A DNA stretch of 64,000 nt from a bacterium (GTDB lineage Bacteria; Zhuqueibacterota; Zhuqueibacteria; Residuimicrobiales; Oceaniaggregativiventaceae). Positions 10,351 to 13,754 of this stretch are shown here, in pieces. The notes under the pieces are model-generated. The model worked only from the letters and a program-made list of their open reading frames with translations, had not been told where the DNA came from and made no database searches. A program made the translations under genes and the position numbers. Where the stretch lies: NCBI GenBank assembly GCA_029565675.1, contig JAKQNP010000052.1:62001-126000 (forward strand), given 5' to 3'. Each line of letters opens with the position of its first letter. Within the stretch, counting starts at the first letter, position 1.

Positions 10351-10935
10351 CTATTGGTTCGAAATCGTTGAACGATCTGAAAAGATTTGCGCGCTAAAAA
10401 TCGATAATTCGGTTCCTTGTTTCTGCCAGGCGTCCGGCTCCAAACCGGCTTTTAGACAGGTGTTTTGCAGAAAGCGAGTGCGATCCCATTTTTGTTCCAC
10501 TGCCACTTGCGGCAACAACAATCCGCTGCGTACTCCGCACTCAACATAGAGACCGTGCTTACCGACGATTATTTGATCGATAGCGCGAATTTTCTGCAAC
10601 GGCGTCAAGACCGAAATTTCAATTTCCAGCAAAGGAAGCTCGTCGCTGCGCAAAGAGGGAAAGCGCAGATCATGCGAAGAAGCGTGTTGCGCCATTTCGA
10701 CTACAGTATGCCAAAGCGGATAGCACGCTCGAATGTAGCCGACACAGCCGCGCAGTTCTCCCGACACGTGCAGCGAGACAAAGGCTCCACAGAGCCGCAA
10801 CAGGTTTTGACTCTGGCCTGAATAGTCAGGGGAAGGTTCATTCTTAAGATTCGATACGATGGCAAGTCGGGCCAGCTGCAGGAGTTCCTGTTGCTCGGTC
10901 TGATTCAATTCTGCACTGGAGTTCGGTTGTTGCAT
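10351..10935 (-). CDS. amrA: AMMECR1-domain protein (AmmeMemoRadiSam system protein A)
   Basis: The 194-residue protein is a stand-alone AMMECR1 domain. Visible marks are GAFVSLHVSGELRGCVG, the DLRFPSL segment and ISVLTPLQ, all typical of the family. Its biochemical role is not established. The family is repeatedly found with MEMO-like proteins and a radical SAM enzyme, as it is here. The start has AGGAAAAAGCG before the ATG. No signal peptide is seen, unlike the fused copy next door, so the cell may hold a cytoplasmic and an exported version. Confidence 0.9.
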   Translation of the reverse strand: MQQPNSSAELNQTEQQELLQLARLAIVSNLKNEPSPDYSGQSQNLLRLCGAFVSLHVSGELRGCVGYIRACYPLWHTVVEMAQHASSHDLRFPSLRSDELPLLEIEISVLTPLQKIRAIDQIIVGKHGLYVECGVRSGLLLPQVAVEQKWDRTRFLQNTCLKAGLEPDAWQKQGTELSIFSAQIFSDRSTISNQ

Positions 10936-10986
10936 CGCTTTTTCCTGACAAGATGAATACCGCCAGCAAACATGGCTTTTGAAAAA

Positions 10987-12492
10987 TCAGCGTTTGGGTT
11001 CGAGCACGCTTTCATCAAATATCTGAGTTTTGTAGACCCAAAACTCTGCATCTTTTTTCCAGGCATCGGGCGGCAAGCCGGCTTTGTGGCAAAGCTGTTG
11101 CATCTCTTCCTCTTTGGTCCGCCAGCCTGCTTCGATGGGCACCTCTGGCAAAAACGTCGCTCCTTTGCCGTTTTTGAGCAAGATGATGCCGTGCACCCCC
11201 ATCTGAAATTCCTCGATAGACGAAATGCGGTAGACATTGGTCAGATAGACTGAAATCTTGATTTTAATTTTGTCCAATTCATCAGCTTGCAACGGCTGAA
11301 AGCGCGGATCAAAAAAAGCCGCGGCAACGGCGCGATCCGGAACCATCTCGATCAACGGTCGATCGGATTCATGGACGCCGATACAGCCGCGCAACTGGCC
11401 GTTGCGGGTGAGGGTGACAAAGCAACCGCGTTTTTGCTGCAGAGCGGCCTTTTCACTGGTAAAAACGCTTGTTTTGCCGGTCTGCAAATAAGTGGCGATC
11501 GCCTGCCGACTGTATCGCAAAAGCTCGCGCTGCTCGTCGAGATTGAGTTCAGGATAGGTGATCACCGGTGAACCGCTTCTGTAGACCACACCGCTGCCAT
11601 AGCCCACCACATAGCCGCCGCGGGTGCCGGTGGCGTCATTGGAGTTGGTGCGCGCGACAACTCGCGCATTGTCGGCTCCCAATTCCCGACAAGCCATTTG
11701 CATGATCACCGCAGCCGCCCCACCGCAAGCCTGGCACCGTTCTTCTGCCCATTCGCGCCAAAAAGCTTCCGGTGCAAAGCGTTCCAAAGCGGCCAGGGTG
11801 TATTCATCGCTTTTTTTGCATTGTTCATAAGAATGGCCGTGATAAAGATCAGTGCTGGCGATCAACAGGCTGCGTTTATCGGCGAGCACGCGGCCCAGGG
11901 CGTCGGCTGTTTGGCGACTGGTGATCCAATCGACCTGGCCGACCATGATGGGAAGAAGGGTGGCGTCGGGAAAAAGATGCTGAACAAAAGGGAGCTGCAC
12001 CTCGAGGCTGTGCTCCGCGCTGCCGTGACCGAGATGGGAAAATTGGGCGGCTGCACAGGTTTCGACAAACGCTTTGGCCGTTTTTTGATCGATGGCGATT
12101 TCGCCCAGCGGTGTCCTGTACGCTCGACCCGGGTAAACCGTTACCCCCGCAAAGGCGTCGCGATGGCTGGGCGCCAATACAACCACAATATCGACATCTT
12201 TGCCCATAACCCGGCTGTATGCAGCAGCCGCAGTGCTGGCAGAGTAGACATAGCCGGCATGCGGAACAAAAAGGCCGATAATCTCTCCTTCCGAAGCCGC
12301 GACATCTGTTGCCTTGATCAACTGATCGACCTGCGCGCGCAACTGAGCGCCGTCAGCCGGATAAAAGGTACCCGCAACCGCAGGCTGCCGCACGAGACCT
12401 TCAGCGGCAGCTGGATGATGAGTGGCTCTCAGGCCAAAGATCAAGACTGCACTTAGCGTCAAACCAGCCAGAAGAATGAGGCGTTTCGGCAT
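10987..12492 (-). CDS. MEMO-AMMECR1 fusion protein with signal peptide (AmmeMemoRadiSam proteins B and A)
   Basis: This 501-residue protein joins a MEMO-like domain (about 35-300) to an AMMECR1 domain (about 320-500). The MEMO part shows RQPAVAGTFYPAD, LFVPHAGYVYS, LAPSHRD and STDLYHGHSYEQC; its histidines and cysteine recall the metal-site residues of MEMO and related non-haem iron dioxygenases. The AMMECR1 part shows GCFVTLTRNGQLRGCIG and FFDPRFQPL. The first 30 residues (MPKRLILLAGLTLSAVLIFG, then AAAEG) form a clear Sec-type signal or anchor, so the protein is predicted to act outside the cytoplasm. The start has AAGGAAGA upstream. It is followed closely by the separate AMMECR1 gene. Confidence 0.92.
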   Translation of the reverse strand: MPKRLILLAGLTLSAVLIFGLRATHHPAAAEGLVRQPAVAGTFYPADGAQLRAQVDQLIKATDVAASEGEIIGLFVPHAGYVYSASTAAAAYSRVMGKDVDIVVVLAPSHRDAFAGVTVYPGRAYRTPLGEIAIDQKTAKAFVETCAAAQFSHLGHGSAEHSLEVQLPFVQHLFPDATLLPIMVGQVDWITSRQTADALGRVLADKRSLLIASTDLYHGHSYEQCKKSDEYTLAALERFAPEAFWREWAEERCQACGGAAAVIMQMACRELGADNARVVARTNSNDATGTRGGYVVGYGSGVVYRSGSPVITYPELNLDEQRELLRYSRQAIATYLQTGKTSVFTSEKAALQQKRGCFVTLTRNGQLRGCIGVHESDRPLIEMVPDRAVAAAFFDPRFQPLQADELDKIKIKISVYLTNVYRISSIEEFQMGVHGIILLKNGKGATFLPEVPIEAGWRTKEEEMQQLCHKAGLPPDAWKKDAEFWVYKTQIFDESVLEPKR

Positions 12493-12523
12493 AGAAATCT
12501 TCCTTGTTTGGCAATTAATTCAC

Positions 12524-13654
12524 TTATTGCCAGATACCGGGAATTCTGGTACCACATCCATCGCAACAGCCGTTCTGCAAATGGTTTTCCAGCACGGCGA
12601 ACCCCATGCGCCGAATCAACAGTTTTTGACAAGCCGGGCAAAAAGTGCTTTCCCCGATATCACCTGGAATATTGCCGGTATAGCAGAAATGCAGACCGCT
12701 GTCCAAACCAATTTGCCTGGCTTGCCGTAAAACAGCCAGGGGTGTGGACGGGAGATTTTTCAACAGATATTGCGGGTGAAACCGGGTAAAATGCACCGGT
12801 GTATCCGCGCCCAGCTCTGCAACCACCCAGGTGCACATCTTTTTCAGCTCAGCTGGTGAATCGTTCTGCCCCGGAATGACCAGGTTAACGATTTCAGTCC
12901 AGATTCCTTCGCTTTTCAACAAAACCAGCGTATCGAGAACCGGCTGCAATTCGCCATTCACCAACTCGTAGTAGAAGCGATTGCTGAAGGCTTTGAGATC
13001 GATCTTGACGGCGGTGAGGACCTTGCACAACTCGCGCATCGGTTCTGGATTGATGTAACCATTGGTGATCATCACATTGTGAATGCCCAGCCGTTTGGCC
13101 TCTTTTGCGGTATCGATCACATATTCCGTCGAAATGACAGGCTCTGAATAGGTATAGGCGATGCAGGCGCTATGTTTGCTCCGTGCCAACTCGGCGGCCT
13201 TGGCAGGTGGCAAATCGTAGGAAGGCACGTCTTCGGGGCTGGCCTGGGAAATCTCCCAGTTTTGGCAAAACGTGCATCTGACATTGCACCCGGCCGTAGC
13301 CATCGAAAAGGCGGCTTGTCCGGGCAAAACATGAAACAGCGGTTTTTTTTCGATCGGATCGATATGCATGGTACAGGGACGGCCGTAGACCAGGGAATAG
13401 AGTATGCCATTGCGGTTCTCTCGCGTGCGGCAGAACCCGCGCTCCCCTTCTTCGATGGTGCATCGGCGCGGGCATAGCAAACAGCGCACCGTTCCATCGC
13501 CGAACGGTTGGTAAAAGCGCGCTTCATTGGCGGACGGACGTCCGGCAATGGCATGCGGAGCCAGCCCGAAAGTGCCGGCCAATCCAAGAGCACACCCGCC
13601 AGCCATTTGCCTGATGAACGAACGGCGATCACAGTCACTGTTGGAATACTTCAT
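12524..13654 (-). CDS. amrS: AmmeMemoRadiSam system radical SAM enzyme with Tat-type signal
   Basis: The 376-residue protein belongs to the pyruvate-formate-lyase-activase-like radical SAM family found with MEMO and AMMECR1. It has an N-terminal Cys cluster (CLLCPRRC and GFC), the radical SAM motif CNVRCTFC, and a C-terminal zinc-finger-like pair (CPAC and CDGC). The N-terminus reads DRRSFIRQ followed by a hydrophobic alanine/glycine-rich stretch and an AIAG cleavage-like site, a good twin-arginine signal. If used, it would export a folded Fe-S enzyme. I start at the ATG at 13654; the longer frame begins with TTG. Substrate unknown. Confidence 0.9.
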   Translation of the reverse strand: MKYSNSDCDRRSFIRQMAGGCALGLAGTFGLAPHAIAGRPSANEARFYQPFGDGTVRCLLCPRRCTIEEGERGFCRTRENRNGILYSLVYGRPCTMHIDPIEKKPLFHVLPGQAAFSMATAGCNVRCTFCQNWEISQASPEDVPSYDLPPAKAAELARSKHSACIAYTYSEPVISTEYVIDTAKEAKRLGIHNVMITNGYINPEPMRELCKVLTAVKIDLKAFSNRFYYELVNGELQPVLDTLVLLKSEGIWTEIVNLVIPGQNDSPAELKKMCTWVVAELGADTPVHFTRFHPQYLLKNLPSTPLAVLRQARQIGLDSGLHFCYTGNIPGDIGESTFCPACQKLLIRRMGFAVLENHLQNGCCDGCGTRIPGIWQ

Positions 13655-13754
13655 CGCTTTACCCGGCAGACAAGGATAAGACAATGGATTGATAACCCTT
13701 TGCGGTGTTCCCCAGTTGAACGCCGGAAGGGGGCCAAAAGTTTTGCATTATGGT

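Follow-up and report, generated by a model that had tools for sequence, protein, structure and literature searches.

The 64,000-nucleotide stretch analysed here (the window; contig JAKQNP010000052.1, positions 62,001 to 126,000 of the forward strand, assembly GCA_029565675.1) carries an AmmeMemoRadiSam set, and two of its three proteins bear predicted export signals. The three genes of the set all lie on the minus strand: the radical S-adenosylmethionine (SAM) enzyme, here called RadiSam (12524..13654, 376 amino acids, ATG at 13654; a TTG at 13684 is an alternative start that adds 10 residues), then a MEMO-AMMECR1 fusion (10987..12492, 501 amino acids), and finally AMMECR1 alone (10351..10935, 194 amino acids). 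They share a strand and are separated by gaps of 31 and 51 bases, and therefore probably form one operon. RadiSam scored 384 bits (4e-115) against TIGR04337, which has a curated cut-off of 220, and also matched PF04055 (3.7e-20). The MEMO part of the fusion reached 238 bits for TIGR04336 (cut-off 26); the AMMECR1 sequences reached 164 bits (fusion) and 175 bits (lone protein) for TIGR04335 (cut-off 99). Within the fusion, the MEMO domain spans residues 36-301 (11590..12387; PF01875, 6e-55), and the AMMECR1 domain residues 326-492 (11017..11517; PF01871, 1e-50). With the three families present, linked and far above their cut-offs, the set is an AmmeMemoRadiSam system. The genome of the window (G000; 4.4 Mb, 64 contigs) contains no AMMECR1 genes other than the lone gene and the fusion, and the host is assigned to candidate division KSB1 through its nearest named relative (L033, 74% identity).

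Both core proteins begin with a predicted signal, as the initial annotation had proposed. The N-terminus of RadiSam (MKYSNSDCDRRSFIRQMAGGCALGLAGTFGLAPHAIAG, abbreviated MKYSNSDCDRRSFIRQMAGG...) is of the twin-arginine translocation (Tat) type: the order is D-R-R-S-F-I-R (RR at residues 10-11), an uncharged stretch of more than 20 residues, and A-I-A/G at residues 35-38, where the slash marks the putative cleavage site. The predicted Tat signal peptide thus covers residues 1-37 (13544..13654). The N-terminus of the fusion (MPKRLILLAGLTLSAVLIFGLRATHHPAAAEG) has M-P-K-R, a hydrophobic core and A-A-A/E at residues 28-31; on sequence and hydropathy it is of the general secretory (Sec) type, with a predicted signal peptide of residues 1-30 (12403..12492). 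The lone AMMECR1 has neither type of signal, again in agreement with the annotation. RadiSam, which close to its start shows the RRxF-hydrophobic motif, uncharged core and AxA expected of Tat substrates, also passed a TATFIND-like rule written for the present analysis. The rule was passed by 138 of 17,400 shuffled N-termini (0.8%) and by 10 of 300 neighbouring genes, seven of which are DUF362 genes. Among 30 radical SAM loci scanned in G000, only the RadiSam of the window had a Tat signal, and TatC was found in the same genome (8.6e-73). In the AlphaFold model of RadiSam (mean predicted local distance difference test score, pLDDT, 93.3), residues 1-40 have block means of 49-79 and contain one isolated helix; the next blocks are at least 94. 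In this model the N-terminal residues lie outside the fold, which contradicts the idea that the stretch belongs to a folded domain.

RadiSam sequences over the cut-off were found in 70 of 82 genomes of the KSB1 phylum, often of two kinds. In the first, the domain is preceded by an extension with RRxF[LI], and the usual neighbour is a signal-bearing MEMO-AMMECR1 fusion; the second begins at the domain itself (many with MKEA..), and neither MEMO nor AMMECR1 stood next to it in the loci read. Further exported sets were found in Aminicenantes, Omnitrophota, Planctomycetota, Poribacteria, Spirochaetes and Desulfobacterota. A FastTree phylogeny of 206 RadiSam domains contained one clade of 119 rows (support 99), made up of 104 Tat-type, six plain hydrophobic and nine unsignalled sequences, although rows within a clade are not independent events. 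This signal-bearing clade spans many phyla, and the remaining tree is almost all unsignalled, including the second RadiSam of G000. Three of the nine unsignalled rows (L226, L283 and L295) show RR by eye, and L060 is cut short. In an alignment of 41 exported RadiSams, the RR pair was almost invariant (at least 90%) and most of the extension was variable; conserved N-termini were what the initial annotation had named as support for export.

The signals were also counted by gene arrangement. A signal was detected on RadiSam in 53 of the 58 non-redundant loci with a fusion, and in 0 of 11 where RadiSam stands beside an intact standalone MEMO. Among the five fusion loci without a detected signal, four (L106, L232, L270 and L057) show RRxFL or RRxFF on inspection, located past the scanned stretch or followed by a short core, and one (L053) has none. 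Four more signal-bearing RadiSams accompany a MEMO that is cut by a contig end or split from its AMMECR1. Moreover, a hydrophobic signal was scored in 62 of 69 fusions; whereas only 9 of 37 standalone MEMO proteins had one (28 had none), and the apparent signal-bearing standalone copies in L023, L104 and L108 are fusions cut by contig ends. A lipobox-like motif was present in 10 of 71 fusions versus 0 of 30 standalone MEMO proteins. Fused and standalone copies cluster in the AMMECR1 and MEMO trees, but neither forms a single clade (9 and 15 changes), which suggests that fusion or splitting may have occurred several times.

The export route was compared with the presence of TatC in 44 further genomes, three of which have a signal-less RadiSam and were excluded. 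TatC was present in 29 of 33 genomes with a Tat-type RadiSam and in 0 of 8 with a plain or Sec signal (Fisher 5e-6, uncorrected for kinship). In these eight, the RadiSam N-terminus is plain hydrophobic in five Omnitrophota and two WOR-3 genomes, and in a Bacteroidales genome (L076) RadiSam is fused behind a Sec signal. L041 was entered as plain, since its RR call came from a stray upstream RR. Five of the seven plain N-termini have a net positive charge before the hydrophobic stretch and not after it (L042 is reversed and L046 a tie), a pattern that would place RadiSam outside by the positive-inside rule. It seems, therefore, that in lineages without Tat the export tag switches route rather than being lost, with kinship and the incompleteness of metagenome-assembled genomes (MAGs) limiting the strength of this comparison. 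The Bacteroidales MAG, in which TatC was not found, encodes a single protein of 831 amino acids with a Sec-like signal, MEMO, AMMECR1 and radical SAM parts (L076:2501-4993). A structure model of this triple fusion, meant for domain facing, had a predicted TM-score (pTM) of 0.53, and its domain arrangement was unusable. In G000, TatC lies directly downstream of Rnf-complex-like genes by eye (L305; G000:C12:22000-32000).

By sequence, the active sites of the exported proteins are intact. Invariant residues in the 41 exported RadiSam homologues include the cluster cysteines C123, C127 and C130, which belong to the CX3CX2C motif CNVRCTFC (residues 123-130; 13265..13288), as well as E171-P172, D219 and K221. 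The N-terminal C58, C61, C65 and C75 and the C-terminal C339, C342, C364 and C367 are also invariant. The nearest solved fold is the pyruvate formate-lyase activating enzyme (3CB8, 3C8F; TM-score 0.82 by target length), which is also the best PDB sequence match (3e-15, 17% identity), and the cluster, EP and DxK regions align. Unlike this activase, RadiSam has the extra N-terminal four-cysteine and C-terminal cysteine-pair regions and an export signal. Its scores are below the curated activase cut-offs (62 versus 232 bits for PFLA, and likewise for the other activase models); by these cut-offs RadiSam is not a glycyl-radical-enzyme activase.

In the MEMO domain, the metal-site candidates are H78, H110 and C256, with D215 and H218 nearby; the first three are conserved in 91-94 of the 94 fusions compared. 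The fusion matches human MEMO1 (7KQ8, 3BCZ) over residues 35-220 (3e-19) with the His-His-Cys candidates kept; whereas the MEMO of the window is fused to AMMECR1, carries a signal peptide and is paired with a radical SAM enzyme. Human MEMO1 binds Fe and Cu through H49, H81 and C244 (PMC11081632), and H78, H110 and C256 are likely the counterparts of these ligands, C256 being assigned by family conservation since it falls outside the stretch aligned to 7KQ8. Compared with the AmmeMemoRadiSam families as modelled (TIGR04335/TIGR04336/TIGR04337), the set resembles them in having all three members linked, with catalytic and metal residues kept. It differs in the export signals on both core proteins and in the MEMO-AMMECR1 fusion, and related loci differ further in their membrane and Tat-DUF362 partners; the model descriptions are silent on export.

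G000 also encodes a second RadiSam, without a signal (C62:504615-505622; L094), and, at C6:25221-26039 (L229), a MEMO of some 290 amino acids that likewise lacks one. These suggest a second, cytoplasmic set, which the lone AMMECR1 of the window may partner. The gene of this cytoplasmic RadiSam paralogue (L094:5601-6617) adjoins an apparent ferritin gene. Elsewhere, two long frames (L230 and L231; 934 and 936 amino acids) combine a signal-less RadiSam-like domain with a following long part that, by eye, resembles phenylacetate-CoA-ligase/CapK-type adenylation domains.

Clustering of flanking genes revealed two partner families, which were counted in 44 exported loci whose flanks were sufficiently long and in 44 cytoplasmic loci. 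One family consists of polytopic membrane proteins, roughly 710 amino acids long, with a central spermidine-synthase-like domain (PF01564). It is related to the polyamine aminopropyltransferases and falls below their cut-offs; one such protein and the copy in G000 pass the fused major facilitator superfamily (MFS)/spermidine synthase model. The members of the other family, DUF362 proteins, frequently carry a Tat signal themselves. The membrane protein occurs in 19 and DUF362 in 16 of the exported loci (30 when taken together), and each in none of the cytoplasmic loci. Both families stand beside exported sets in many phyla. In G000 both are encoded outside the window, the membrane protein at C31:116645-118774 and the Tat-DUF362 gene on C62, where it is directly followed by a gene for a NapH/NapG-like protein. 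The membrane partner runs on into FMN_bind and two Fer4_5 domains in L267 (6530-10507), as in NosR, NapH and RnfG, and into Fer4_5 in L239. These domains are shared with the NapGH/NosR/Rnf electron modules, which are absent from the window; their linkage suggests a role with RadiSam.

In four RadiSam homologues of one subclade (L057, L232, L270 and L273), a haem-c-type motif (CxxCH) follows the Tat signal and precedes the radical SAM domain. Attachment of c-type haem, by cytochrome c maturation, happens only outside the cytoplasm. If haem is attached to this motif, that step would therefore take place outside. Beside the exported RadiSam of some Desulfobacterota stands a second Tat-tagged radical SAM protein of about 350 amino acids (L279:437-1489; similar genes in L275, L276, L282, L284, L288 and L293). 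It scored 22 bits for TIGR04337 (cut-off 220), which indicates a different family.

These data can be joined in the following probable mechanism. RadiSam would fold and receive its [4Fe-4S] cluster in the cytoplasm and then leave by Tat; the MEMO-AMMECR1 fusion would leave by Sec and meet RadiSam on the outer side of the inner membrane. Here RadiSam would generate the 5'-deoxyadenosyl radical and, together with AMMECR1 and the Fe/Cu-type site of MEMO, modify an envelope component, which may be a protein side chain or a membrane lipid. Of the two, the activase-like fold points to the side chain. Isoprenoid or nucleotide-base modification was reportedly proposed in a 2019 analysis of the Memo superfamily. 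Electrons may arrive through a membrane conduit of the NapGH/NosR/Rnf kind, with c-type haem on RadiSam itself as a possible route in some lineages. The supply or handling of SAM may use the conserved membrane protein with the spermidine-synthase-like domain, which is a guess and a rather doubtful one. The partners could thus meet both standard objections to radical SAM catalysis outside, namely electrons and SAM.

That RadiSam and the fusion are both exported is very probable, as the clade-wide Tat-like N-termini, the paired signal of the partner and the change of route where TatC was not found all support the export proposed by the initial annotation. An exported AmmeMemoRadiSam acting in the envelope is likely the best explanation of the data as a whole; whether RadiSam performs radical SAM catalysis there is plausible and about evenly balanced. 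Several points weigh against this explanation. The curated Tat model TIGR01409 is the top match to RadiSam residues 1-45, but its score of 14.9 bits is slightly below the 16.7 cut-off (three homologues reached 23.3, 20.6 and 24.9 bits, and the Pfam Tat model matched 7 of 41 homologues at a loose threshold). The RadiSam of a few loci (L049, L053, L054, L055 and L297) has no visible signal, and a Tat-type RadiSam occurs in four MAGs in which TatC was not found, although these may be incomplete. Most of the homologues come from MAGs. In the plain-signal lineages and in L076, the protein would need to pass through Sec unfolded and acquire its cluster outside, for which we know of no precedent. A periplasmic SAM pool is, to our knowledge, not established.

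This last point favours a first alternative, in which export takes place but no radical chemistry follows outside: RadiSam would have a metal or redox role there, for example handling metal together with MEMO, and its cluster site would hold another metal or a non-catalytic cluster. The Sec-like signals or anchors in genomes without detected TatC are also consistent with it, since a preformed cluster may then be unneeded at export. Likewise, human MEMO1 binds Fe and Cu (PMC11081632). However, the cluster cysteines, the other cysteine groups and the EP and DxK motifs of the pyruvate formate-lyase activase type are all invariant in the 41 exported homologues, which would not be required of a scaffold, and neighbours with SAM-type and electron-transfer domains suit catalysis better; we consider this alternative unlikely. 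Less likely still is that RadiSam works in the cytoplasm, where SAM and reductant are at hand, and is then exported with its substrate as a complex, Tat serving for delivery or quality control. The Tat system exports preassembled complexes by hitchhiking, according to two papers (PMC4273604, PMC10924467). However, the direct partner bears a separate Sec-type signal, and the two proteins would therefore not meet folded in the cytoplasm, and G000 keeps a separate signal-less RadiSam and MEMO for work inside. A cytoplasmic set whose N-terminal stretches arose by chance or belong to a folded domain, which the slightly sub-threshold TIGR01409 score of this RadiSam favours, is very improbable and was rejected given the clade-wide conservation, the 0.8% of shuffled N-termini that pass, the position outside the fold, the paired partner signal and the change of route where TatC was not found.

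Radical SAM enzymes are taken to be cytoplasmic. A literature search found no paper describing an exported radical SAM enzyme or the location of AmmeMemoRadiSam; most subscription journals lay outside the search, and papers elsewhere are possible. The parts are known; what appears to be new is the exported branch as a whole, with its clade-wide signals, its other route without Tat and its partners. The analysis went beyond the initial annotation in finding the cytoplasmic paralogues, the two partner families (membrane protein and DUF362) and the Sec-type replacements. The MEMO1 and AMMECR1 families also occur in humans, where MEMO1 is tied to metal binding and cancer, and AMMECR1 to developmental disease. 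Tentatively, and with somewhat less confidence than an even chance, the exported branch might represent a widespread and old periplasmic radical SAM system of many phyla, equipped with a dedicated electron conduit and a SAM-binding-type membrane protein to provide or process the cosubstrate, and acting on an envelope target. A large branch built for the envelope narrows the possible substrates, names two partner families and points to the Desulfobacterota as possible cultivable hosts. If RadiSam is active outside, SAM and low-potential electrons must cross the membrane, and radical SAM chemistry would be extended to an unexpected compartment.

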